A stretch of 64,000 bases of DNA from Nitrosarchaeum sp. (GTDB taxonomy: Archaea > Thermoproteota > Nitrososphaeria > Nitrososphaerales > Nitrosopumilaceae). The notes beneath the pieces were generated by a model. That model did no database searches. It saw only the letters and a program-made list of their open reading frames with translations, and had not been told where the DNA came from. Of the stretch, positions 6,547 through 18,440 are shown one piece after another; position 1 is the first letter of the stretch; every line of letters starts with the position of its first letter. The stretch spans positions 186,001 to 250,000 of the forward strand of contig BGOU01000007.1 of assembly GCA_003569705.1 (NCBI GenBank), written 5' to 3'. Both the position numbers and the translations under genes were made by a program.

Positions 6547-7443
6547 CTATTGGAGATTCAACGGAATAGTTGCACTTCCCCATGGTTCTGAAATTCTAAA
6601 GACATAATCTTTTGCAGGATCATAGATGAATTTTGTTGAGCCAGGTATTGGTATCATAGGACCAAATAACATGGTGAATTCTCTTGCTTTTCCTGGAGTT
6701 AGAACAATGTTTCCGTTTGTAAAGTCATTTGTAGAATAGTGAAATACATCTTTACCATTCCAAACATCATAGTTACAGAAGGCTGGACCAGTACAGAACA
6801 AAGAGATGTTATCAGTAGAACCGGTATTTTTAACAAGCATTTTAATTGTTAAAAGTGCCTGTCCGGTTGGACTAATCTCAAATTCAGCACCTGGAAAATA
6901 ATAGGTTGCTGAACCAACGACATATTGAGTAGATTTTTGTTCGTACTCATATTCGGTGATTTTCAACTTTGCTTTGTCTACGCAATCATATCTAGCATAT
7001 GACTGAAAAATGTCTTTACACTTGTCAAGATCTGCTTGAAGTTCTACAAGTCTAGAACCATCAGATGTAGTTTTTGGAGCAGAGTCAGGAGATTTTGATT
7101 CAGATGTAGGTAATGAGATCACTCCGGTCTTAATTAAATGCTGAATACCATTTATGAACTCAGTATCAGTGATTGTACCGTCTGCCCACCAACCTGCATT
7201 GTTTTTTACCCAAGCTGGAACAGATTGAGATTTTTCTGCAGAGACTGCAGTTGGAGGAATTACGATAATACCGTCTTTTATCAGAAATTGTATTCCTTGA
7301 ATAAATTCAGATTCAGATATCGTACCGTCTGCCCACCAACCTGCATTGTTCTTTACCCAAGCTGGAACTCCTTCTGCGTTAACAAATGGAGTTATTGATC
7401 CAACAAGGAAGATTGTCGCTATTGTGACAATTGTTGTTTTCAT
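6547..7443 (-). CDS. secreted protein with two Trp-rich PAWVKNNAGWW repeats
   Basis: A 298-residue protein with an N-terminal signal peptide (MKTTIVTIATIFLVGSITPFVNA) and two tandem ~45-residue repeats of the form 'PAWVKNNAGWWADGTI...F..GIQ.LIK', followed by a beta-rich C-terminal domain of about 170 residues. The repeat occurs in many thaumarchaeal secreted proteins and has no assigned function. A longer frame reaches 7467, but I choose ATG 7443 because it gives a normal signal peptide and puts the shared upstream TTAGCACTAG-type box 49 bases away, as at the other promoters of this block. Likely located outside the membrane. Confidence 0.75.
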   Translation of the reverse strand: MKTTIVTIATIFLVGSITPFVNAEGVPAWVKNNAGWWADGTISESEFIQGIQFLIKDGIIVIPPTAVSAEKSQSVPAWVKNNAGWWADGTITDTEFINGIQHLIKTGVISLPTSESKSPDSAPKTTSDGSRLVELQADLDKCKDIFQSYARYDCVDKAKLKITEYEYEQKSTQYVVGSATYYFPGAEFEISPTGQALLTIKMLVKNTGSTDNISLFCTGPAFCNYDVWNGKDVFHYSTNDFTNGNIVLTPGKAREFTMLFGPMIPIPGSTKFIYDPAKDYVFRISEPWGSATIPLNLQ

Positions 7444-7474
7444 TATGATGAATTTTGCAATCATCATATTTAAG

Positions 7475-7502
7475 CTGGTGCCAAATGACTATCTAGTGCC
7501 AA
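7475..7502 (-). promoter_or_regulatory. paired TTAGCACTAG-type boxes upstream of the secreted W-repeat gene
   Basis: On the minus strand, TTGGCACTAG (7502-7493) is followed 18 bases on by TTGGCACCAG (7484-7475), then a TATA-like TTAAATATG and the ATG at 7443. The distal copy ends 49 bases before the start. Both copies differ from the consensus by one or two bases. Confidence 0.6.
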
Positions 7503-7536
7503 ATAATGATGATCAAATATCATGAGATGGACAATC

Positions 7537-7546
7537 TAGTGCTAAA
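7537..7546. promoter_or_regulatory. TTAGCACTAG box upstream of DUF1722-photolyase operon
   Basis: An exact copy, read here as CTAGTGCTAA, lies 50 bases before the GTG start of the DUF1722 gene and ahead of a TATA-like TTTTTAAATAAA at about 7567-7578. A five-codon reading frame (7583-7600) lies between TATA and the GTG start and overlaps it. Confidence 0.65.
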
Positions 7547-7596
7547 ATGAATTCAGTATACTCAGATTTTTAAATAAACAACATGAAATTTGAAAA

Positions 7597-8157
7597 GTGA
7601 AGGATAACAATACACAATTTCATGATAGAAATTACAAAATATCAGAAAACGATGTAATAGAATACGTTTTACAACGATTTCAAGAGGTAAAGCACTCAAA
7701 CAAGATTAAAAATCTAGTCACATTTCAAGCCGCAAATAAATACATGATAATGGCGCATGATCAAACAGAGTTAAAAAATCTAGGAACCATAGTTGCCAGT
7801 TACAAAAAAATACCATTTTCAATCATCTTGCAAGAGTATGAAGATCACTTTAGAACTGCTATGACAAAAAAGCCAACAGTAAAAACACATACAAATGTGA
7901 TAATGCATATTTTTGGATATTTTTCAAAATATCTTACTCAAAATGAAAAGCAGTTATTTTTTGAGATGTTAGAACAATTCAGAAAAAATAAAATAACTTT
8001 AGGAAACATGCTCTTGGAAATAAGTTGTACAACATATCGCTTTAACAACACATATCTTGCCAGTCAAACATATTTTTTGTTATATTCAGATGTTCAGCCT
8101 AGAATTTTATTTCAGGCATTAGATAAAAATGGTGTTTCAGAGGAATTCAATTCATAA
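7597..8157 (+). CDS. DUF1722 (YbgA-like) protein
   Basis: This 186-residue protein matches DUF1722: 'NKYMIMAHDQTELKNLGTIVA' followed by 'TNVIMHIFGYFSKYLTQNEKQLFFEMLEQFRKNKITL'. In E. coli the homologous ybgA sits directly upstream of the photolyase gene phr, and the same pairing is seen here, with the photolyase frame eight bases downstream. The biochemical role of DUF1722 is unknown; it is often linked to DNA photorepair. Start GTG 7597 overlaps a five-codon upstream frame (GTGA). A TTAGCACTAG-type box lies 50 bases upstream. Confidence 0.75.
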   Translation: MKDNNTQFHDRNYKISENDVIEYVLQRFQEVKHSNKIKNLVTFQAANKYMIMAHDQTELKNLGTIVASYKKIPFSIILQEYEDHFRTAMTKKPTVKTHTNVIMHIFGYFSKYLTQNEKQLFFEMLEQFRKNKITLGNMLLEISCTTYRFNNTYLASQTYFLLYSDVQPRILFQALDKNGVSEEFNS

Positions 8158-8183
8158 AAACAGCATTGAATTTTAATAAAAAA

Positions 8184-9542
8184 ATGACATTATACAAAAA
8201 ATCATTATTCATATTCCGTCGAGATTTAAGATTAGAAGACAATACAGGATTGATTTATGCATTAAAAAATTCTGAGGAAGTAATTCCATGTTTTATTATT
8301 GATGACCAAATAACAAATAATTTTAAAAATTCTTCACATAGAATAGAATTTCTGAATCAATCTCTAGTTGATCTAAATAAACAATTAAATAAAAAGAAAA
8401 ACAGTTTAAGAATTTTTAAAGGTGAAACTAAGCCAATTATTCAAAAAATAATGTCAAAATATAAAATCAATGGAGTATTTTTAAATGGAGACTACACAAG
8501 ATTTGCTCAAAATAGAGAGGGTGAAATTGAAGAGTTATGCAATAAAAATAAAATTGGTTTTAACAAATATGCAGATTATTTATTACACATGCCTGATGAA
8601 ATACAAACGCACAAAGAAACGCCATATACAGTTTATTCACATTTTTTTAAAACTGCAAAAACAATTCCAATAAGAAAAATAATAAAAAATAACTTTAACA
8701 ATTATTACAAGGATGAAATTAAAGATTCTATTTCAATAGACATGTTAAAAAAAAGAGTTAAAAAAAATAATAATGGCGGAAGAACCAACGCACTTAAAAT
8801 TTTAAAAAATATCCACATGTTCAAAGATTATCAAAAAACTAGAAATTATCCGTTTTTAGATAAGACAACCAAATTATCAGCCCATAACAGATTTGGCACA
8901 GTGTCTATTCGTGAAGTATATCACACAATAAAAGAAAATCTAGGCGAAGAGCATATTTTGATCGGTGAGATATACTGGAGAGAATTTTTTACGTATATTT
9001 TACATCATTTTCCAAATTCACAATTTAAAACATTTAAGAAAAAATTTCAAAACATACAGTGGAGTCCAAATGTACGAGATTATCATGCGTGGTGTGAAGG
9101 AAAAACAGGGTTTCCCATTATTGATGCAGGAATGAGACAATTAAACAAAACAGGATTCATACACAATAGAATCAGAATGATTGTTGCATCATTTCTTACA
9201 AAAGATCTACACATAGACTGGAAGAAAGGAGAAAGATATTTTGCAGAAAAACTTGTAGATTATGATCCTGCAGTAAATGTAGGTAATTGGCAATGGGCTG
9301 CATCTACTGGATGTGATGCAGTTCCATATTTTAGAATATTTAATCCATGGCTACAACAAGAAAAATTTGATCAGGATTGCAATTACATTAAAAAATGGAT
9401 CCCAGAATTAAAATCAGTTCAACCTAATGAAATACATAATCTTTGGGAAAAACGACCAGATGGTTTAACATATCCAAAACCAATAATTGATCATATTATA
9501 GAATCAGCAAAAGCAAAAGAAATTTTCAAAATGCAAAAATAA
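8184..9542 (+). CDS. phr: deoxyribodipyrimidine photolyase
   Basis: A 452-residue FAD-dependent photolyase that splits cyclobutane pyrimidine dimers with blue light. The N-terminal antenna-type Rossmann domain begins 'LFIFRRDLRLEDNTGL'. The C-terminal FAD domain holds 'WREFFTYILH', 'TGFPIIDAGMRQLNKTGF', 'HNRIRMIVASFLTKDL', 'VNVGNWQWAASTGCDA' and 'FNPWLQQEKFD', all class I photolyase motifs including the Trp chain region. I choose ATG 8184 over TTG 8166 because the conserved N-terminus starts shortly after it. It is in one operon with the DUF1722 gene. The archaeal antenna cofactor cannot be read from sequence. Confidence 0.93.
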   Translation: MTLYKKSLFIFRRDLRLEDNTGLIYALKNSEEVIPCFIIDDQITNNFKNSSHRIEFLNQSLVDLNKQLNKKKNSLRIFKGETKPIIQKIMSKYKINGVFLNGDYTRFAQNREGEIEELCNKNKIGFNKYADYLLHMPDEIQTHKETPYTVYSHFFKTAKTIPIRKIIKNNFNNYYKDEIKDSISIDMLKKRVKKNNNGGRTNALKILKNIHMFKDYQKTRNYPFLDKTTKLSAHNRFGTVSIREVYHTIKENLGEEHILIGEIYWREFFTYILHHFPNSQFKTFKKKFQNIQWSPNVRDYHAWCEGKTGFPIIDAGMRQLNKTGFIHNRIRMIVASFLTKDLHIDWKKGERYFAEKLVDYDPAVNVGNWQWAASTGCDAVPYFRIFNPWLQQEKFDQDCNYIKKWIPELKSVQPNEIHNLWEKRPDGLTYPKPIIDHIIESAKAKEIFKMQK

Positions 9543-9556
9543 TTTAAAAAAATAAA

Positions 9557-10936
9557 TTAAATAGGTTTTCCTTTGTATTGATAATCAATTACTTTATGAA
9601 ACGTATTATGAGATGCAATTATTGCAATTATAACAACAAACATACCAATAAAATTTCTTAGTGTGATTATTTCATTAGGATGAGGGGCTAATATAGAAGT
9701 GTCAAATACAACATAGAAATTGTCAAATGACCAAAATGCAAGAGTTATCCATGACAAAATACCGCTGATGATAAATCCTAGACGAGTTTTGCCCTTTACA
9801 AATATTATTCCAGATATAATTCCAATATACCAAACAATTCCAGCTGCAATCCATCCAGGATGGTAAACATCAGGTCGGTCATCTAACCAATAATAGGTAG
9901 TGCCAATAATCGCCATGGCAATTAATGAAACAAGTAAAAGTTTTTGATTGATTTTAAAACCAGTTTTCTCGTCTCTAGGATTTGTTTCAGGAGGGTTTTC
10001 CCTCATTTCCTTTGTTGCGATATCTATTGCCTCACGGACAGATTTTAATCTGATTGGGATAATTTTAGTAATAGAATTATCAGTTACGATGGTATCATGA
10101 ACAAGACTATCAATTAAGGGTCTTGCCAATGAAGCCTTTACAGGAGTAATAAGATCTACCCAATATGAGGAAAGTCTAGTAGTAAGAAAAGGAATTTGAA
10201 TTACAAAGAGATTTTTGTTTAAATAAGCAGAATAAACACGCATTAGTTCTTCATATGTCATAGTATCAGGTCCTCCAATTTCATAGGTTTTTCCACTTGT
10301 TTCAGGATTATTCATGCAACCTACCAGATATTCTATCACGTTATCAACAGCGATGGGTTGTGCAAGTGATTTGACCCAAGATGGGGTTACCATTATGCGT
10401 AGTCGTTCAACAAGATAACGAAGCATTGCATACGAACCTCCCTGTGCTCCAATTATTAATGACGCACGTAATTGGGTCACAGGAATATTTCCAGATGCTA
10501 AAATTTCACCTACTTCTTTTCTGCTTTGCATGTGTGGAGATAATTCTAAACTATCATTTACCAACCCGCCAAGATAAATTATTCTTTTAACATTGGCTTT
10601 TGTTGCAGCTTTGAGAAAATTTTGAGCTTGAATTCTTTCTCTAGAGGCAAATTCTTTCCATTGTTCTTTACTTCCTTCCATAGAATGAAGAAGATAATAT
10701 GCAATATCAATTCCAGACATGATTTTTTCCAATTGATCAACATCAAAAACATCAGCTTGAACATACTTCACATTATTTGAATCTTGAAGTTTTTTTCTAC
10801 TCATTCCTTTTATGGTATATCCAAATGAAGACAGAGATGAGATCAGTCTAGAACCAATAAAACCAGTTGCACCAGTTACTAAAATAGAATAAGGTTTTGA
10901 TTCAGAAAATGAGTTATCTAATATTTTTTGATTCAT
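9557..10936 (-). CDS. NmrA/NDUFA9-like SDR with C-terminal membrane domain
   Basis: A 459-residue protein. Residues about 15-320 form an atypical short-chain dehydrogenase with the dinucleotide loop 'VTGATGFIGSRL' and a 'PVTQLRASLIIG' segment typical of the NmrA/complex-I NDUFA9 branch. Residues about 330-459 hold four predicted membrane helices of a DUF2867-unrelated type that I do not recognise. Similar reductase genes occur in bacterial light-inducible (LitR/CarH) gene sets. Its ATG lies nine bases after the stop of a possible 28-residue upstream frame (10946-11032), whose own start is 48 bases from a TTAGCACTAG box. Substrate unknown. Confidence 0.75.
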   Translation of the reverse strand: MNQKILDNSFSESKPYSILVTGATGFIGSRLISSLSSFGYTIKGMSRKKLQDSNNVKYVQADVFDVDQLEKIMSGIDIAYYLLHSMEGSKEQWKEFASRERIQAQNFLKAATKANVKRIIYLGGLVNDSLELSPHMQSRKEVGEILASGNIPVTQLRASLIIGAQGGSYAMLRYLVERLRIMVTPSWVKSLAQPIAVDNVIEYLVGCMNNPETSGKTYEIGGPDTMTYEELMRVYSAYLNKNLFVIQIPFLTTRLSSYWVDLITPVKASLARPLIDSLVHDTIVTDNSITKIIPIRLKSVREAIDIATKEMRENPPETNPRDEKTGFKINQKLLLVSLIAMAIIGTTYYWLDDRPDVYHPGWIAAGIVWYIGIISGIIFVKGKTRLGFIISGILSWITLAFWSFDNFYVVFDTSILAPHPNEIITLRNFIGMFVVIIAIIASHNTFHKVIDYQYKGKPI

Positions 10937-10945
10937 AAGAACATG

Positions 10946-11032
10946 TTATCCAATTATCTTGTCAGTAAATAGACTAGAGATTAGTGTAATATCTAGTTTC
11001 TTTGTGGAATTCCTGCATTCTATGACAACCAT
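10946..11032 (-). CDS. possible 28-residue leader peptide upstream of the NmrA-type gene
   Basis: A short frame (MVVIECRNSTKKLDITL...) begins with ATG at 11032 and ends nine bases before the SDR start, in the same frame. The only support is position: its ATG lies 48 bases from an exact TTAGCACTAG box, the same spacing as the other genes of this block, so a leaderless transcript would start near it. It may simply be the 5' leader of the SDR gene. Confidence 0.35.
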   Translation of the reverse strand: MVVIECRNSTKKLDITLISSLFTDKIIG

Positions 11033-11061
11033 ATAATTTATTTGCAACTAAATTATTTAAA

Positions 11062-11090
11062 CTAGTGTTAAAACATAATACTAGTGCTAA
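11062..11090 (-). promoter_or_regulatory. paired TTAGCACTAG boxes for the NmrA-type gene
   Basis: On the minus strand, exact TTAGCACTAG (11090-11081) is followed 19 bases on by TTAACACTAG (11071-11062). A+T-rich TATA-like sequence (TTAAATAATT) follows directly, then the ATG at 11032. Confidence 0.65.
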
Positions 11091-11153
11091 AAATTCATAA
11101 AATAAACTCCTATAGGCTATAAAAAACATCCAAATTATCAAAATATAAAAAAA

Positions 11154-11182
11154 TTAGCACTATGGATGAAGGTTAGCATTAA
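11154..11182 (+). promoter_or_regulatory. paired TTAGCACTAG-type boxes for the B12-binding regulator gene
   Basis: TTAGCACTAT (11154-11163) and TTAGCATTAA (11173-11182) are spaced 19 bases apart. The second touches a TATA-like TTAAATAG at 11183-11190, and the ATG follows 23 bases later. The distal copy is 49 bases from the start. If the downstream protein binds this box it would regulate itself. Confidence 0.65.
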
Positions 11183-11212
11183 TTAAATAGGTTACTAAAA
11201 GAATGATCAAAC

Positions 11213-12055
11213 ATGGTTTACCTCAGAGCAAAAAAAGTAAAATCTGATAATTACCTATATTTAGTAAAGAGTGTGTGGGATTCTAAAAAAAATACGTCAA
11301 AGCAAGAGATTGTAAAATATTTAGGCAAAGCATCAGAAGTGGTTAAAGACGACATACCAATAGATTATAGAGATGATCCAAAAATTTTATCCGTATTAGC
11401 ATTACATAATCCAGATGATATAGAAAAAAGAGAGGAATCAACAAAAAAATCAAAACAAATGTTATACAAAAAATTAACTGATGGAGATATTAAATCATCT
11501 GTAAAAATTTATGAAGAATACATTAAAATTTTTAGTTCCGCAGATTTTTTTGATAAAATTTTAAGACCAGTCATGTATAAAATAGGAGATGATTGGGCTA
11601 ACAACAGAATAAGTATTGCGACAGAACATGTTGCAAGCAACGTTGCTCAAACACTTGTTAAAATTATAATGGATCAAGTTACAGGAATGGTTAACAAAAA
11701 GAAAATTCTTGTTTGTGTTCCGGTTGGGGAAGAACATCATTTAGGTTGTGATGTTTTGGAGACATATCTTTCAATAAAGGGATTTAAAGTGTACAATATG
11801 GGCACATCGATACCAACAGAATCAATACTTAGTTTTATTGAAAGTAACAAGCCAGATGTAATACTAGTTTCAATCACATTAGAAGACAACATACCCGCAG
11901 GACAAAGATTAGTAAAAAAGATCAAGGAACAATACAACATTCCAATATTGATTGGAGGATTTGCGTTACAATCAAAAAAAATACCAAAATTTGAGGCAAC
12001 GGTAATTTCAGACATACCACTTGATGAAATTCCAAAAATTCTCAGAACAGCATAA
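11213..12055 (+). CDS. CarH-like cobalamin-binding regulator with unusual N-terminal domain
   Basis: A 280-residue protein. Residues about 85-160 form the four-helix cap with 'IGDDWANNRISIATEHVASN', which contains W-x9-EH, the signature of the light-sensing CarH/LitR proteins. Residues about 165-280 are a B12-binding Rossmann domain with 'GEEHHLG' (E-x-H-x-x-G, His as lower cobalt ligand), an S-x-T/L loop and 'LIGGFA'. CarH proteins bind adenosylcobalamin in the dark and fall apart in light. Instead of a MerR helix-turn-helix, the first ~45 residues (MVYLRAKKVKSDNYLYL... VKYLGKASEV) resemble the small N-terminal domain of some IS-type transposases and archaeal proteins. The neighbouring photolyase supports a light role. 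Methyltransferase corrinoid proteins are the main alternative, but no methyltransferase is nearby. Confidence 0.8.
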   Translation: MVYLRAKKVKSDNYLYLVKSVWDSKKNTSKQEIVKYLGKASEVVKDDIPIDYRDDPKILSVLALHNPDDIEKREESTKKSKQMLYKKLTDGDIKSSVKIYEEYIKIFSSADFFDKILRPVMYKIGDDWANNRISIATEHVASNVAQTLVKIIMDQVTGMVNKKKILVCVPVGEEHHLGCDVLETYLSIKGFKVYNMGTSIPTESILSFIESNKPDVILVSITLEDNIPAGQRLVKKIKEQYNIPILIGGFALQSKKIPKFEATVISDIPLDEIPKILRTA

Positions 12056-12198
12056 TTTTAAATTCTTTTTGATTTACCAATCTCTAATTCGACAAAACAT
12101 TCAGAACATATTGATAAAAATTGTAATAATCATAATAAGAATTGAAACAATTGCATTTTATCTTTTGTAATAATTATAATATGAAAAATAGATGACGT

Positions 12199-12546
12199 TC
12201 AACTAGTAGAATCTAGATTTTCTTCAAGATATATTTCAAGAGTATCGAATTTGTCTTGATGATCTGCTACAAAATGAAGGATATACTGAGAATCAATTTC
12301 CACCCATTCGGATATTCCTCTATACATAAGATAATCTTCTACTACAATATCATTTGGTCCAGTCAATCTTACCAAAACTTTTTTTTCATTACCCAGTTTG
12401 AAAGGTAATTTTAATAATTTTTCTTTCCATTCTCCTTGAATGTTTATTTTATATTCATTTTCTTCAAACTCTACTTTACCAAAAAAGTAACTCTCGTTAA
12501 TGTCTAGTTTTTTGATTTTAATTTTCAAAGGAGTTAGATATTTCAT
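12199..12546 (-). CDS. hypothetical protein, box-linked
   Basis: A 115-residue soluble, beta-rich acidic protein without recognised motifs. It is a single-gene unit, convergent with the B12-binding gene and divergent from the membrane protein at 12655. An exact TTAGCACTAG box ends 48 bases before its ATG, with a TATA-like CTTATAAG between, which makes it a likely member of the block's shared regulon. Function unknown. Confidence 0.6.
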   Translation of the reverse strand: MKYLTPLKIKIKKLDINESYFFGKVEFEENEYKINIQGEWKEKLLKLPFKLGNEKKVLVRLTGPNDIVVEDYLMYRGISEWVEIDSQYILHFVADHQDKFDTLEIYLEENLDSTS

Positions 12547-12594
12547 ACTTGCATTTTCATTTCATGTCTTATAAGAATAGGTTATACTATAGAA

Positions 12595-12604
12595 CTAGTG
12601 CTAA
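12595..12604 (-). promoter_or_regulatory. TTAGCACTAG box between divergent genes
   Basis: An exact copy on the minus strand, 48 bases before the gene starting at 12546. It is also 50 bases before the divergent gene starting at 12655, where it is read as CTAGTGCTAA, so one near-palindromic site may serve both promoters. Confidence 0.65.
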
Positions 12605-12654
12605 TTTAATTACATGGTGTTCTTTTTTAATAAGAACAAATTTAAAAGAAATTC

Positions 12655-13338
12655 ATGCATATCATTAATTTGATTTTAATTACATCGATGTTGATAATTA
12701 TTCCTCTAGATGCAAACGCTCACAAATTGATTAGTCATGATGAGAGTCATACGGAGTTAAAAAATGCCTTAGACATACCGAATCATAAAATATCTTGGGC
12801 GATTTATGAAGACCTCAAACATAATCAAGTAAAATATTACAAATTTACAGCAAAACACGGAGATTTATTTTACTCTAGTATCGTAATTCCAAAAATTTCA
12901 GCATTGTCTGATTACGCACCAACTCTCGTAATAATTGGGAACGGAATAGATAGATCAGACACAGTTCCATTTGAGGTGTCACCTGAATTAGGAACGTGGG
13001 TTTTTTCGTATCAAGGTCAATTCCCTTCTAAAGAGTTCTATGAACCATTTGGGCAGGTGACATATTGGGAAAGACAAGAAGTGAAAATAACAATACCAAA
13101 AGATGGAACATACTATATTGCAGTATATGATCAACAATCAAACGGAAAGTACAGTTTGGCTGTTGGTACTGTGGAGGATTTTACATTTGTAGATTTTTTT
13201 ACATTATTACCAAAATCTTGGTTTGATACAAAGATCTTTTTAGAAGATTATCTCAGTATAACTATTGGATTAATTTTTCTAATTGGGATTCCAGCAGGAA
13301 TTGTTTATCTCATAATAAGGAAAAAAATAAAACATTAA
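12655..13338 (+). CDS. membrane-anchored exported protein of unknown function
   Basis: A 227-residue protein with an N-terminal signal peptide (to about residue 22), an external beta-rich domain with a 'DGTYYIAVYDQQSNGKYSLAVG' ending of the kind seen in pre-peptidase-C-like or emp24-like beta-sandwiches, one C-terminal membrane helix (about 198-220) and a short basic tail. The active part therefore faces outside. It shares the intergenic TTAGCACTAG box (50 bases upstream) with the divergent 12546 gene. No enzyme motif is visible. Confidence 0.65.
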   Translation: MHIINLILITSMLIIIPLDANAHKLISHDESHTELKNALDIPNHKISWAIYEDLKHNQVKYYKFTAKHGDLFYSSIVIPKISALSDYAPTLVIIGNGIDRSDTVPFEVSPELGTWVFSYQGQFPSKEFYEPFGQVTYWERQEVKITIPKDGTYYIAVYDQQSNGKYSLAVGTVEDFTFVDFFTLLPKSWFDTKIFLEDYLSITIGLIFLIGIPAGIVYLIIRKKIKH

Positions 13339-13419
13339 CAAATATTTACAATATTTAACAGTTAATCGCTTAAAATACATAATCAAATTATCATGTGATT
13401 GTATTGGTAGCATGGTATT

Positions 13420-14754
13420 TTACGCATTCAGATAAGAGATAATTTTAGGATAACAAAGAAGAGAGCTGTGAGCAGCAGAATCGGTTCCAATCCCATAACT
13501 TATTGTAGAATCTCCAACAAAAAATAGCCCCTTTATTCCAGGTATTTCATGAGGCATTTTTGATTTCCAAACCATTCCAGGTTCTTTAACTACAGATTCC
13601 ACTAATTTCCATGCCATAGGCCTTTCCCAAAGTAGTGATGAAGTAAATTTAGGATAAATTGATGAGATTTCTTTTTTCATATCATCAACAATTGTTTTGA
13701 TTTTTTTTGGATCATCTGCCACTGAGGGATGTACCGGAGTACCAGTGATCATCAGATGTTCTCCAGGAGGAGATACAGATGGAGTAATATTAGAAATAAA
13801 AAAAATTCCCTTTGTAGTGTAATTATCACCAACAGGAAAAACTATCTGCTTTGAATCTAATTTGGAATTTAATGCAAAATGAACTTCCACCACTGCGGTC
13901 TTTTTGTCTAATCGGTTTATTTTTTCAACAAATTTATCATCAATTATATTTTTTTCAAATAATTCATTGAGCGCCACATATGCGGGATAAGATACAACTA
14001 CACAATCAGATTGAATAAAATCATTATCAGAAGTAATAATTCCAGTAACTATAGAATTTTCAATAATAATTTTCTTTACAGATTTGTTTAAATAAATTTC
14101 ACCATTTTTTTCTAAGATGTAATCAGATAAGATTTTGGATATTGAATCATATCCTCCGTCTGCAGGATATGCAAATTCACTTGTTCCTCCTTTGAAAGGA
14201 TTTGCACGGATTATAGTTCTTGCAAACTCACCCAGTGATATATGCGCAGCAGAATCAGCAAATGCAAGCATGCACACTGCTTCAAAAAATGCATTTGTAT
14301 TAGAATCTAGTTTTTTTGTAATTTCAGTTAAAGATAAATCATCCCAAGATTCTGTTTTTTTAATAGATGTAAAAGCCATGGGAAGAAGGATATTCAATAA
14401 ACTGATTCTACTTTTAAGAGGAATTAGTGAAAGTTGTAATAAATCACTTATGCCTTTAGGATATTTATGAAATCCAGTATTAGAAAAAAATGCAATTTTA
14501 TCCACCGTTGTGAGTTTTAGCCTATTCTGAATGCCAATTTTTTTAAAGACACTGAAAATTGCAGATTTTTTGTAAAACGGCATTATGTGAAAGCCATTAT
14601 CTAGTATATGACCACGAAATTTCATGGATGTGGTTCTTCCTCCCAGTTTTGAATGCTTTTCAATTATTTTTACTGGATGATTATTTCTGACAAGTAAGGA
14701 AGCAAGAGTCAAACCTCCAACACCAGCACCTATTATACAAATAGATTTCACCAT
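13420..14754 (-). CDS. FAD-dependent oxidoreductase (phytoene desaturase/protoporphyrinogen oxidase superfamily)
   Basis: A 444-residue flavoprotein. The N-terminal dinucleotide motif 'CIIGAGVGGLTLASLL', the acidic residue after strand 2 (IIEKHSKLGGR) and the C-terminal 'GLFFVGDSTISYGIGTDSAAHSS' FAD-binding segment are clear. The superfamily includes carotenoid desaturases, protoporphyrinogen oxidase and amine oxidases; I cannot choose among them. Genes of this superfamily are regular members of bacterial light and singlet-oxygen regulons. Two TTAGCACTAG-type boxes 19 bases apart lie upstream and overlap the 3' end of the next gene, so it has its own promoter inside the gene run. A link to haem is possible but there is no direct sign of it. 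Confidence 0.75.
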   Translation of the reverse strand: MVKSICIIGAGVGGLTLASLLVRNNHPVKIIEKHSKLGGRTTSMKFRGHILDNGFHIMPFYKKSAIFSVFKKIGIQNRLKLTTVDKIAFFSNTGFHKYPKGISDLLQLSLIPLKSRISLLNILLPMAFTSIKKTESWDDLSLTEITKKLDSNTNAFFEAVCMLAFADSAAHISLGEFARTIIRANPFKGGTSEFAYPADGGYDSISKILSDYILEKNGEIYLNKSVKKIIIENSIVTGIITSDNDFIQSDCVVVSYPAYVALNELFEKNIIDDKFVEKINRLDKKTAVVEVHFALNSKLDSKQIVFPVGDNYTTKGIFFISNITPSVSPPGEHLMITGTPVHPSVADDPKKIKTIVDDMKKEISSIYPKFTSSLLWERPMAWKLVESVVKEPGMVWKSKMPHEIPGIKGLFFVGDSTISYGIGTDSAAHSSLLCYPKIISYLNA

Positions 14755-14782
14755 AATTCATATTGTTTCTAAATTATTTATA

Positions 14783-14811
14783 CAGGTGCCAAATTACAAA
14801 TATAGTGCTAA
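14783..14811 (-). promoter_or_regulatory. paired TTAGCACTAG-type boxes for the FAD oxidoreductase gene
   Basis: On the minus strand, TTAGCACTAT (14811-14802) and TTGGCACCTG (14792-14783) are 19 bases apart, followed by TATA-like TATAAATAA and the ATG at 14754. The distal copy is 47 bases from the start and overlaps the stop codon of the upstream gene. Confidence 0.65.
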
Positions 14812-15266
14812 CTGATGAGACTAGAACCATTGGAAGAAATTTTATTTTCAGCTGAACATATGAATTCATCCATAACAATCATCATTTGATTGACAACATA
14901 CCCTTTCAAAAAATTAAACACTTGTAAGATTCCAAAGAATTTAATATTTAAATCTATAATAATTTCAGTACCATTTTGAGTAGAGTTATAGAATTCAATG
15001 AATGATGTGTCCTTTAACGGTCCAGTTAAAATGTAAACTTTATGAATATTTGTAGGAATTATTACATGCCTAGTTTTTACCTGAATAACAAATCCAAGAA
15101 AAGAAATTTTTTCAAGAACAATCTTTTCATTGGGTTCATCTTTAATTATTTTTAATGATTTGAAATATTTCGGTAAGATTAGATGAAAATTAGCAATATT
15201 CGTGCTAATATGAAAAAGTTGTTGCTGTGGCAATGTACTAGTTTTACAAAATATTAAATTTTTCAA
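14808..15266 (-). CDS. SRPBCC-like protein
   Basis: A 152-residue protein with the strand order of a START/Bet v1 (SRPBCC) ligand-binding fold: an N-terminal segment with 'IANFHLILPKYFKSLKII', mid strands with 'YILTGPLKDTSFIEFYNSTQNGTEIIIDL', and a long C-terminal helix. Such proteins bind hydrophobic ligands in the cytoplasm. It overlaps the 15263-15634 gene by ATGA and is probably translated from the transcript starting at the 15680 box. Family call by pattern only. Confidence 0.55.
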   Translation of the reverse strand: MKNLIFCKTSTLPQQQLFHISTNIANFHLILPKYFKSLKIIKDEPNEKIVLEKISFLGFVIQVKTRHVIIPTNIHKVYILTGPLKDTSFIEFYNSTQNGTEIIIDLNIKFFGILQVFNFLKGYVVNQMMIVMDEFICSAENKISSNGSSLIS

Positions 15267-15634
15267 CGAGATATCACACCATCAATGTAATCAAAAATAT
15301 TAGATTTAGTTATTTTAAGATCAGGATAGATAACTAAAAGATATTTTGTCAATAGTGCCAATGATGATTTTACTCCATCAGTTTTATCAGGATCAGTTAA
15401 GGGGTATAAACGAATGGTAGTTTTTAATTTCGTTGTAGAAATTTCAATTAAAAATTCACGGTGCATATTGTCAATGACTATTGTAGGAAGAAGGGCACTA
15501 AGACAGTTATTCTGAACAAAGATGGTAGATATTTTTATCAAAATAGGATTTTTTTGAAATATACCTGTAAAATTTTTAGATAGATCCAACAAATCAATTT
15601 TTCTACTAAATACTACATGAGGCAATATGTTCAT
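15263..15634 (-). CDS. hypothetical protein, first gene of box-linked pair
   Basis: A 123-residue protein with no motif that I recognise; the pattern is mixed alpha/beta (LLDLSKNFTGIF, FLIEISTTKLKTTIRLYPL). It starts the ATGA-coupled pair with the SRPBCC-like gene. Its ATG is preceded by TATA-like TTATATAA and, 45 bases upstream, an exact TTAGCACTAG box. It may be a divergent SRPBCC-related protein, but this is a guess. Confidence 0.6.
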   Translation of the reverse strand: MNILPHVVFSRKIDLLDLSKNFTGIFQKNPILIKISTIFVQNNCLSALLPTIVIDNMHREFLIEISTTKLKTTIRLYPLTDPDKTDGVKSSLALLTKYLLVIYPDLKITKSNIFDYIDGVISR

Positions 15635-15679
15635 AATTATATAATAAATGTCACATATATGAAAAATGAAGGAAGATGC

Positions 15680-15689
15680 CTAGTGCTAA
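15680..15689 (-). promoter_or_regulatory. TTAGCACTAG box for the 15634 gene
   Basis: Exact copy on the minus strand, 45 bases upstream of the start at 15634. It is arranged divergently from the next copy at 15723, giving two back-to-back promoters. Confidence 0.7.
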
Positions 15690-15722
15690 ATTTTTAATAT
15701 TTCCTACAGTAGTATTATTGAA

Positions 15723-15732
15723 TTAGCACTAG
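15723..15732 (+). promoter_or_regulatory. TTAGCACTAG box for the 15780 small gene
   Basis: Exact copy 47 bases before the ATG at 15780, with TATA-like TTTTAAAG at 15741-15748 in between. Confidence 0.65.
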
Positions 15733-15779
15733 ATATTGAATTTTAAAGCCCTGAAATATCACAAAGGGATACAAGATTC

Positions 15780-15944
15780 ATGGGCTCAGAATTTTATGAA
15801 ACATATGGTTTTGAATTAGAATATGCTGAATCAAATAAGGGGTATTTTGAATTAATACAAAAAATTTCTCAAAAGATATCAAAGAATAAAAAATTTGCCA
15901 ATATGGATTTAAGTACGATCCAAGAAGAGTATCAGTTCGAATAA
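15780..15944 (+). CDS. 54-residue box-linked small protein
   Basis: A short acidic/basic helical protein (MGSEFYETYGFELEYAESNK...) without Cys or membrane segment. It is supported by an exact TTAGCACTAG box and a TATA-like element at the spacing seen for the other genes of this block, and by an ordinary ATG start. No family recognised. Confidence 0.55.
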   Translation: MGSEFYETYGFELEYAESNKGYFELIQKISQKISKNKKFANMDLSTIQEEYQFE

Positions 15945-16253
15945 ATCATAACAATACAAACCAAAGATAGTTTCAGATTTTCGAATCTTAATTTTGTTGA
16001 CATAAATTACTATTTTCCCTACAAATTTGATTATATGAGAATCAGATTTTCTTATGATTTTGATACATCATCTAAGATAACGGTTGGAGAAAAAATTAGT
16101 AGAATGACATTTTAGAATCCTGAAAATCAAAAAAACAACATATTGAAATTAAAATTAAAATTGAAATAGATGTCAAAGATACATCACAAGATAAGATCAC
16201 AAAATAGCATCTAAAATATTATAGAAATAACAAAAAGCAATAAATTTCTCAAG
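15945..16253. other. gene-poor stretch
   Basis: Very A+T-rich. The only notable frame is a 26-residue one at 16035-16115 (MRIRFSYDFDTSSKITVGEK...), for which there is no box or other support. I see no RNA gene or repeat here. Confidence 0.5.
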
Positions 16254-16263
16254 TTAGCACTAG
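16254..16263 (+). promoter_or_regulatory. TTAGCACTAG box for the small membrane protein gene
   Basis: Exact copy, 46 bases before the ATG at 16310. A clear TATA box (CTTATATAC, 16281-16290) lies about 20 bases before the ATG, so the box sits just upstream of the BRE/TATA region, where archaeal activators usually bind. Confidence 0.7.
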
Positions 16264-16309
16264 TTTTAATCTTTTCAAGATCTTATATACAATAAAACAA
16301 AATAAAATC

Positions 16310-16429
16310 ATGAATCAAGAAAGACAATACAAAGAACCAATGAGTGGTAAAAAATTATTTGCCATCGTCGGAGCCGTAATGGTTGGTGCAGTGATTACAG
16401 GATTGGTTTTATTTACAAATTTTCTTTAG
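16310..16429 (+). CDS. 39-residue single-membrane-helix protein
   Basis: A short polar N-terminus (MNQERQYKEPMSGKK) is followed by one membrane helix (LFAIVGAVMVGAVITGLVLF). It resembles small stress-linked membrane peptides in overall shape only. The ATG is preceded by a good TATA box and an exact TTAGCACTAG box, which argue strongly that it is expressed, probably from a leaderless mRNA. Confidence 0.65.
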   Translation: MNQERQYKEPMSGKKLFAIVGAVMVGAVITGLVLFTNFL

Positions 16430-16543
16430 TAAATAATACATTTTTTATTTTTTATATTCTAATTTTTTAGAAATTTTGTGTCAGTAATTCAGATACCATA
16501 TAACGTAAAATGAAGTTATGAAAAATAAAAAATTTTTCAGTAA

Positions 16544-16553
16544 TTAGCACTAG
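16544..16553 (+). promoter_or_regulatory. TTAGCACTAG box for the zinc-ribbon/flavin oxidase operon
   Basis: Exact copy 47 bases before the ATG at 16601, with TATA-like ATTAATATAT at 16571-16580. A degenerate second copy (CTGGCATTAT) may sit 19 bases downstream at 16563. Confidence 0.7.
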
Positions 16554-16600
16554 ATTAGATTTCTGGCATTATTAATATATCAAAAATTAAAATAAACAAC

Positions 16601-16703: not shown

Positions 16704-17141
16704 ATGATACAAAAATTAGATAGTCAAAAACTTGAAAGTATGATTAATGATACAAAGATTCCAATAAGACTAGCTTGTATAACACTCACTGGTGCTCCTA
16801 TTGTGGTGTCCTTATGGTACACAATATTGGATGGAAAAATTTATTGTGCAACACAAAAAAAGGCAAAAATTATTTCATATATTCAAAACAATCCAATATT
16901 TGGATTTGAAATAGCAACTGATAGTCCACCATATAGAGGAGTTAGAGGTCATGGAAAAGTCAAAGTCATAGAACATATGGGAAAAGATATTCTTGGAATT
17001 TTAATAGACAAATATTTAGGTAAAAAGGTATCAACATTATCAGAATTTTTAAGAAATAATTCAGAAAATGAAGTAGCAATAGAGATAACTCCTGAAAAAT
17101 TATCCACATATGATTATTCTAAACGGATGAAAGGTGTTTAA
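16704..17141 (+). CDS. pyridoxamine 5'-phosphate oxidase-like (split-barrel) protein
   Basis: A 145-residue protein of the FMN/F420/haem-binding split-barrel family: 'IRLACITLTGAPIVVSLWYTILDGKIYCATQKKAKIISYIQNNPIFGFEI' and 'YRGVRGHGKVKVIE' are typical. Members use FMN or F420 to reduce or oxidise small molecules, or bind haem breakdown products. It is one base downstream of the zinc-ribbon gene and four bases ahead of another zinc-ribbon gene, all under the 16544 box. Cofactor and substrate cannot be told from sequence. Confidence 0.75.
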   Translation: MIQKLDSQKLESMINDTKIPIRLACITLTGAPIVVSLWYTILDGKIYCATQKKAKIISYIQNNPIFGFEIATDSPPYRGVRGHGKVKVIEHMGKDILGILIDKYLGKKVSTLSEFLRNNSENEVAIEITPEKLSTYDYSKRMKGV

Positions 17142-17460: not shown

Positions 17461-17532
17461 ATGCGAAAGGAAAGAAATCAAGTACATATGTGTAAGATCG
17501 TGATCAAAGATATCTTTATGTTGTCAGAGTGA
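17461..17532 (+). CDS. possible 23-residue leader peptide coupled to TFB
   Basis: A short frame (MRKERNQVHMCKIVIKDIFM...) whose TGA stop overlaps the GTG start of the TFB gene (GTGA). Its ATG is 47 bases from a variant TTAGCACTAG box. Translation of this frame could be coupled to that of TFB. It may just be the 5' leader. Confidence 0.35.
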   Translation: MRKERNQVHMCKIVIKDIFMLSE

Positions 17533-18440
17533 AGAAAATGTTAACAGAATTAATTCATCAAGATGATTGTAAGAAAAATAAAATAATCACAGATCCTGCC
17601 ACAGGTGAAGTAGCATGTAGTAATTGCGGTGTAGTTCTTCCTGAAAAATCAATAGATTCAGAATCAGAAAATTTAGGAACTACTAGTGAGGGATATTTAA
17701 CTAGCAGAGTAGGTGGAAAAATTTCTTTAAAAATGGCAGATATGGGACTGTCCACGATAATAGAAACACAAGATAGAGATTCTACGGGCAAGTCGCTCTC
17801 CAGAGAAAATCGTAGAATGTTTTATCGTTTGCGTATGTGGGATAGAAACAGTAGATCGGCAAATACAGTCAAATCATTTCAAAAAGCATTTACTTTACTT
17901 GACGGAATAAAAACTAAACTTGCATTACCTGAATCAGTAGTTGAGCAAACAGCATACTTGTTTAGAAAAATATCTGCAAAAAAAATCACCAGTGGAAGAT
18001 CTACTACAGTAATTCTTTGTGCAACAACTTACATTGTATGTAGATTAACCAATACACCAAGAACACTACATGATATTGCAGATGTTGGAAATGTAAAAAT
18101 AAAGCAACTGCAAAGAATATACAGATTTCTTGTCAAGGAATTAAATATTTATCCAGCAGTATACAACCCGAATGAATTCGTTACACGACTTGCCAAAGCA
18201 ATCAATGTATCAGAGAAAACTCAAAGATTGACATTTAGAATTCTAGATATTGCTGAAAAAAAAGGCATTACAACAAGCAAGAATCCAATTTCAATGGTAG
18301 CTGCAGCAGTATACCTGGCATTGCTAAAAAATAATGAAAAAGTTTCACAGATGAAAATTGCCCAAATTTCAGGCATTAGTGCTGTTACAATTAGAGACAG
18401 AGCTAAAGAGATCAAAAAATTAATGGGAGGTGAAATTTAA
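17529..18440 (+). CDS. tfb: transcription initiation factor B (TFB)
   Basis: A 303-residue archaeal general transcription factor that binds BRE/TATA-TBP and recruits RNA polymerase. It has an N-terminal zinc-ribbon region, a B-finger/linker with 'SLSRENRRMFYRLRMWDRNSR', and two cyclin-like repeats (about 105-200 and 205-300), the second ending in 'SQMKIAQISGISAVTIRDRAKEI'. The zinc ribbon is unusual: the second pair is intact (CSNC) but the first CxxC is reduced to one Cys (C14) with a His at residue 10. These archaea carry several TFBs, often with specialised roles. GTG 17529 overlaps the upstream leader frame; ATG 17538 is an alternative. The next gene starts at its stop (TAATG). Confidence 0.93.
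   Translation: MKKMLTELIHQDDCKKNKIITDPATGEVACSNCGVVLPEKSIDSESENLGTTSEGYLTSRVGGKISLKMADMGLSTIIETQDRDSTGKSLSRENRRMFYRLRMWDRNSRSANTVKSFQKAFTLLDGIKTKLALPESVVEQTAYLFRKISAKKITSGRSTTVILCATTYIVCRLTNTPRTLHDIADVGNVKIKQLQRIYRFLVKELNIYPAVYNPNEFVTRLAKAINVSEKTQRLTFRILDIAEKKGITTSKNPISMVAAAVYLALLKNNEKVSQMKIAQISGISAVTIRDRAKEIKKLMGGEI

Follow-up and report, generated by a model that had tools for sequence, protein, structure and literature searches.

The 280-aa protein encoded at 11213-12055 in the window (the whole 64-kb stretch of DNA analyzed here) is, with a probability of roughly three in four, an archaeal photoreceptor that uses adenosylcobalamin (AdoCbl) and regulates transcription in the manner of CarH, i.e., an AdoCbl-bound repressor of photoprotection genes in the dark that light would release. 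This reading is built on the domains, signature residues, fold class, and conservation of the protein, the linkage of its gene, the co-occurrence of an upstream motif with the gene, and the AdoCbl supply of the genome. An earlier, sequence-only reading had proposed a CarH-like photoreceptor candidate at this locus, and the four-motif signature, the fold matches, the neighbors, and the operator-like motif described below support that proposal.

Domain organization and fold

ORF and Pfam analyses divide the protein into an N-terminal module of about 50 aa, a cap, and a Rossmann domain. It stops at aa 280, just past the Rossmann domain, and the same analyses found no biliverdin-binding domain. 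The gene and its parts are as follows:

11213-12055, plus strand: candidate AdoCbl photoreceptor/regulator gene, 280 aa (ORF, Pfam, NCBIfam, PDB profile, Foldseek)
11213-11362, plus strand: N-terminal module, aa 1-50, putative DNA-binding part, not MerR (position and conservation; no Pfam entry)
11459-11668, plus strand: B12-binding_2 four-helix cap, aa 83-152 (Pfam, 2.4e-11)
11594-11629, plus strand: W128-x9-E138-H139, adenosyl-pocket residues, matching W131, E141, and H142 of TtCarH (alignment)
11702-11959, plus strand: B12-binding Rossmann domain, aa 164-249 (Pfam, 5.9e-14)
11726-11737, plus strand: G172-E-E-H175 with the lower axial His, matching H177 of TtCarH (alignment)
11801-11815, plus strand: G197-T-S-I-P201, GxxxP signature (alignment)

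The top NCBIfam model was CarH at 61.1 bits, far below the 400-bit cut-off of that model (NF052513), and corrinoid proteins came second with at most 45 bits. A family profile run against the PDB scored 84 bits for photocobilins, 74 for CtMerR, 59 for a corrinoid protein, 57 for MetH, and 56 for CarH; the CarH alignments begin only at aa 78-86 of the protein. A comparison of the predicted structure with CarH, suggested together with the sequence-only reading, was made by running the AlphaFold2 model (mean pLDDT 74) against the PDB with Foldseek, and the best 50 matches listed were all CarH, photocobilin, or CtMerR. By sequence and fold, the best matches are photocobilins and CarH.

The photocobilins SasPcob and AbDPcob (PDB 8j2w and 8j2y) give the top match to the B12 part, carry the same signature, and likewise miss the upper His, but they continue into a biliverdin-binding C-terminal domain and a diguanylate cyclase, neither of which occurs here; the 280-aa protein in turn has the N-terminal module and the operator-like boxes. 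CtMerR (Chloracidobacterium, PDB 8jbs), the second-best match, is a validated AdoCbl photoreceptor without the H132 ligand, and its DNA-binding domain differs in being of the MerR type. CarH/LitR proteins (Thermus, Myxococcus, Pseudomonas), which are MerR-type AdoCbl photoreceptor repressors, have in common with the 280-aa protein the cap and Rossmann domains, W-x9-EH, the lower axial His, and repeated operator-like boxes at the promoter in an autoregulation layout. They differ in their MerR helix-turn-helix, in place of which an unrelated 50-aa module stands here, and in their operators, since the present boxes have another sequence, a 19-bp period, and archaeal TATA/BRE promoters beside them. 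Because the MerR domain is absent, the protein is not a member of CarH/LitR, though it is CarH-like in its proposed working.

Photoreceptor signature residues

The AdoCbl photoreceptor signature GxxW, EH, GxxH, and GxxxP was derived by sequence mining and validated experimentally (PMC11796333). All four motifs are complete in the alignment of the 280-aa protein. W128-x9-E138H139 in the cap, and G172EEH175HLG178 with the turn G248G249 further on, were found where the sequence-only reading had placed a W-x9-EH and an E-x-H-x-x-G with a GG turn. Among 63 distinct, diverse homologs, H175 and the GG turn are invariant, and GxxW (G125DDW128) and EH are each kept in 58. In GxxxP, the Pro is kept in 61/63 and the Gly in 34/63, with mostly Ser or Ala otherwise; the full set, allowing any residue at this Gly, is present in 58/63. 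Orthologs without W-x9-EH would have spoken against the sequence-only reading, but the orthologs keep this set, and the five exceptions all belong to one paralog clade. Judged from these alignments, conservation of the signature set far exceeds chance.

The upper light-state ligand of TtCarH, H132, is replaced by A129, at a position that varies across the family. In the validated photoreceptors CtMerR, SasPcob, and AbDPcob, the equivalent residue is Arg, Gln, and Tyr, respectively (PMC11796333), so the loss of this His does not exclude light sensing. The H132A substitution largely prevents tetramer break-up in TtCarH (PMC10442372), and the output step is therefore not simply transferable from TtCarH to the present protein; CtMerR, SasPcob, and AbDPcob also have an output unlike that of classical CarH. 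The sensor core carries every AdoCbl photoreceptor mark tested, from which we infer that it binds AdoCbl and responds to light.

The sequence-only reading had named, as a result that would refute it, a close match to corrinoid methyltransferase subunits with a methyltransferase nearby in other genomes. On this alternative, the protein would be a corrinoid carrier (MtaC/MtgC-like) that lies near the photolyase by chance. Such carriers and MetH do have the B12-binding fold and the GxxH...G loop in common with the protein, and corrinoid proteins are its second-best NCBIfam matches; however, they score under CarH in NCBIfam and under the photocobilins against the PDB, the nearest matches being B12 photoreceptors. 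W and EH set the protein apart as well, because the genome's own MetH-like protein, put through the same alignment as a decoy, has GDKF at the GxxW position and no EH. In addition, the N-terminal module is conserved, and no methyltransferase was recognized among the conserved neighbors at the loci examined, where domain annotation covered part of the neighbors. We rejected this identity, which is largely refuted and very improbable.

Distribution and paralogs

Of the 400 Nitrososphaeria genomes sampled, 145 carry the regulator gene, counted as present at E < 1e-20; they belong to Nitrosopumilaceae-type genera and three other families. A FastTree phylogeny of the B12 cores places the five signature exceptions in one monophyletic clade (support 1.0), but its deeper branches, toward CarH and MetH, are not strong enough to show where the origin lies. 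The exceptions are:

L066 1474-2337 and 1137-1469; L067; L068; L069; L070: entries of the W/EH-less paralog clade, Nitrosopumilaceae

These paralogs have lost W and EH and retained the lower His and the N-terminal module. They are reminiscent, by analogy, of Myxococcus, where the B12-independent CarA stands beside CarH (PMC9304148). Their upstream regions lack TTAGCACTA boxes and carry another, partly palindromic element (ACTCAYCWAGGTGMG..TAAT) just 5' of the TATA box. In two genomes (G210 and G190), a separate stand-alone cap-like protein of 111 and 101 aa, respectively, directly follows the paralog, with QH replacing EH; a photolyase gene lies near the paralog in G066, G125, G171, and G321. 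Relatives were also sought outside these genomes: the viral contigs searched encode none, and what the plasmids searched encode is limited to CarH, photocobilin-like proteins, and further cobalamin-dependent proteins, all of them without the N-terminal module.

Gene neighborhood and candidate targets

The regulator gene is surrounded by genes for the following proteins:

6547-7467, minus strand: exported 306-aa protein with KNNAGWWADGTI repeats, boxed in many genomes (ORF, locus scan)
7597-8157, plus strand: DUF1722 protein, C-terminal part of RudS (Pfam, homology)
8166-9542, plus strand: DNA photolyase (Pfam, NCBIfam, homology)
9557-10936, minus strand: NAD(P)-binding SDR/epimerase with a C-terminal membrane part (Pfam, homology to Thermus island SDR)
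13420-14754, minus strand: FAD amine oxidase/desaturase-like protein (Pfam, NCBIfam)
16704-17141, plus strand: PPOX-class oxidoreductase with F420-type matches (Pfam, NCBIfam)
17529-18440, plus strand: TFB, a general transcription factor B paralog (ORF, locus comparison)

Across genera and families, the regulator gene is repeatedly found next to photolyase, DUF1722, SDR, and amine oxidase genes, in arrangements such as these:

G003 (L081): regulator-photolyase pair, 4 bp apart
G093 (L088): SDR-regulator-amine oxidase
G114 and G262 (L158, L159): box-led operon of membrane protein, SDR, and regulator
G189 (L163): photolyase-box-regulator, an SDR and a PPOX fragment lying close by

Photolyase, RudS/DUF1722, SDR, and FAD oxidase genes are also found in CarH/LitR islands. 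The CarH island of Thermus thermophilus contains a photolyase, RudS (TudS-DUF1722), SDRs, and an FAD oxidoreductase, and Pseudomonas LitR regions contain PhrB, an SDR, an FAD-dependent oxidoreductase, and RudS, a protein linked to tRNA protection against near-UV cross-linking. The photolyase, DUF1722 protein, and SDR of the window are homologous to proteins of the Thermus island (SDR, 33% over 303 aa, 3e-56), whereas the homology of the amine oxidase is confined to a generic FAD-binding stretch, a weak parallel. In the 400-genome sample, 51 of the 55 genomes with a photolyase carry the regulator gene; since 94 of the 145 gene-bearing genomes gave no photolyase match, the photolyase is not a universal target.

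Two further genes of the cluster deserve mention. The exported 306-aa protein consists in part of repeated VPAWVKNNAGWWADGTI units, and its true start is probably an internal ATG at 7443, in a leaderless geometry. The TFB gene is not near the regulator gene in most loci of the other families; in G385 (L161 291-1390), a zinc-ribbon ORF and TFB have a paired box of their own. The light response may thus extend to switching this general transcription factor.

The cofactor can be supplied by the genome itself, which encodes a cobalamin adenosyltransferase. Its other B12-domain matches above the cut-off are the MetH-like protein and a stand-alone B12-binding protein of 144 aa, whose size makes it a probable small subunit of methylmalonyl-CoA mutase. 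A genome that makes and uses cobalamin, an intact binding pocket, and the missing upper His of TtCarH speak for a sensor of AdoCbl level (or of cobalamin form, or of oxygen or redox state), and such a sensor would use the same protein and boxes without responding to light. We consider this improbable, because the photolyase and the other candidate targets belong to the gene set of bacterial light islands and are not recognized cobalamin synthesis or transport genes, and because photolyase genomes almost always carry the regulator gene.

An operator-like paired box at the cluster promoters

The sequence-only reading had pointed to boxes at 11154-11182; they are real and take the form TTAGCACTA-N10-TTAGCATTA, conserved across the order. 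The boxes of the window are:

11154-11181, plus strand: paired box TTAGCACTA-N10-TTAGCATTA before the regulator gene, with a TATA-like ATTAAATA at 11182-11189 (upstream alignment, PWM)
11063-11090, minus strand: paired box before the divergent SDR gene (PWM scan)
7476-7502, minus strand: paired box (N9) before the 306-aa gene (PWM scan)
7537-7545, inverted: third box, facing the DUF1722-photolyase genes (box search)
14784-14811, minus strand: paired box before the amine oxidase operon (PWM scan)
16544-16571, plus strand: paired box before a 33-aa ORF and the PPOX operon (PWM scan)
12596-12604, minus strand: single perfect box, 58 nt from the start of a 115-aa gene (12546) (box search)
15681-15689, minus strand: single perfect box before a 123-aa gene (start 15634) (box search)
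15723-15731, plus strand: single perfect box, 57 nt before a 54-aa ORF at 15780 (box search)
16254-16262, plus strand: single perfect box, 56 nt before a 39-aa membrane ORF at 16310 (box search)

The paired box abuts the TATA box of the regulator gene from Nitrosopumilaceae through the three other families. It is present in 50 of 63 upstream regions of homologs, 47 of them with a 10-bp spacer, and the boxes average 1.55 bits per position, as against 0.18 for the spacer. The first box starts 56-62 nt (most commonly 57 nt) 5' of the start codon, and the four single perfect boxes likewise lie 55-58 nt from the starts at 12546, 15634, 15780, and 16310. A PWM scan of the 64-kb window returned five paired boxes, all within 7476-16571 and before cluster genes only, and none in the reversed sequence; 30 loci contain 52 sites, with none in the control. 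At the promoters of the regulator and photoprotection genes, these boxes are present as a sequence pattern and represent putative operators.

The exact pattern TTRGCACTA-N10-TTRGCAYTA occurs in 82 of the 400 genomes, 75 of which carry the regulator gene (Fisher p = 5e-32, not corrected for kinship), and a backward control pattern matched twice among all 400. Some of the seven pattern-bearing genomes without a detected regulator gene are incomplete, and some of these seven likely represent chance matches. Within the genus of the window, the pattern is found in 9/9 genomes with the gene and in 0/7 without it.

Boxes were also seen before other kinds of genes. In Nitrososphaeraceae-type genomes, paired boxes precede two-helix membrane peptides of 65-80 aa (L154 2181-2208, L155 1248-1275, L163 7062-7089, and L166 4054-4081), some of them distant from the regulator gene. 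A putatively box-controlled protein of ~185 aa (L035 11309-11860 and L164 11144-11716) matched the DICT domain weakly (E 0.02, which does not reach the cut-off); the DICT domain is among the light-linked B12 architectures (PMC11796333).

The N-terminal module

Pfam gave no match within the first ~80 aa of the protein, and aa 1-70 have no Pfam or NCBIfam match, MerR helix-turn-helix included, which bears out the earlier view that the N-terminus is not MerR. Twelve residues (R5, K7, Y14, L17, V18, W22, Q31, K35, Y36, L37, G38, and P49) are invariant among 20 divergent members. AlphaFold2 modeled the module as a beta hairpin and a helix in the full-length protein (pLDDT ~54) and as helices in the isolated domain (58). 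No second protein of the genome carries the module. A phylum-wide profile search gave weak matches to a module-like start on Fic-domain proteins (L142-L145) and on ORFs that by eye resemble transposase fragments. The earlier suggestion of a transposase-like N-terminus therefore stands in so far as related modules begin such ORFs, but the module belongs to no Pfam family and occurs on Fic proteins too, which leaves the suggestion a weak lead. Its sequence relatives suggest that the module moves among archaeal proteins as an add-on domain, one without a Pfam entry. In Nitrosopumilaceae genomes, the Fic/DOC-domain proteins (L142-L145) are preceded by the same type of module, and one locus (L071 1501-1737, G100) encodes a stand-alone copy of 79 aa that has no B12 domains and a single box upstream.

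The position of the module and the upstream motif make it the putative DNA-binding part. A B12 photoreceptor might instead lack DNA binding of its own and control by contact another regulator to which the TTAGCACTA boxes belong, e.g., the nearby TFB. In favor of this, the module has no recognized fold and has relatives on Fic proteins, a TFB paralog lies in the same cluster, and the W/EH-less paralogs retain the module yet have a different upstream motif. Against this, the presence of the boxes follows that of the regulator gene, both between genera and inside one genus, the boxes mark the regulator's own promoter, as autoregulation predicts, and no further DNA-binding candidate proved as consistently linked, TFB itself being away from the regulator gene in most loci of the other families. 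We regard the contact model as unlikely and retain direct binding by the 280-aa protein.

Proposed mechanism and significance

The inner box lies beside TATA, where archaeal promoters have their BRE, and this location favors repression, with activation the less likely mode. We infer that the 280-aa protein binds the boxes and probably represses. In the dark, the AdoCbl-bound protein would oligomerize, and its small N-terminal modules would grip two TTAGCACTA boxes 19 bp apart; with the inner box on the BRE position beside TATA, TBP/TFB would be blocked at its own promoter. The same block would act at the nearby photoprotection promoters (SDR, amine oxidase, PPOX, and exported protein), and the photolyase would come under control via operons or extra boxes. 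Light would break the Co-C bond and drive the adenosyl group out of the W128/E138/H139 pocket, and the altered assembly would free the boxes and turn the genes on. A wider proposal, to which we give slightly better than even odds, is an order-wide archaeal light regulon in which the photoreceptor, through a DNA-binding module not described before, acts directly on the paired TTAGCACTA boxes that photoprotection genes carry at the BRE/TATA. A TFB paralog may be among these genes and would widen the response. In the same proposal, an AdoCbl-blind paralog arose within Nitrosopumilaceae, parallel to CarA/CarH in Myxococcus.

Few nitrifiers are as abundant as the ammonia-oxidizing archaea, which also produce cobalamin. 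That light inhibits ammonia oxidation is well established (PMC9239080). The signature-mining study leaves archaea unmentioned (PMC11796333), and our search of full-text literature on CarH or B12 photoreceptors in archaea, Thaumarchaeota included, with most subscription journals outside its scope, found no description of a B12 photoreceptor in archaea, in agreement with the sequence-only reading, which knew of none in this lineage. The gene content common to this cluster and the bacterial CarH/LitR islands poses the question of whether a photoprotection module was transferred whole or assembled twice. If the reading is true, a B12 photoreceptor core has been fused to a DNA-binding module unrelated to MerR that works on archaeal-type promoters, and TATA/BRE promoters could be switched by light with it. 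No earlier B12-based light switch would be known from archaea, and this one would make archaeal light sensitivity testable at the gene level, with a named gene, chromophore, operator, and target list.
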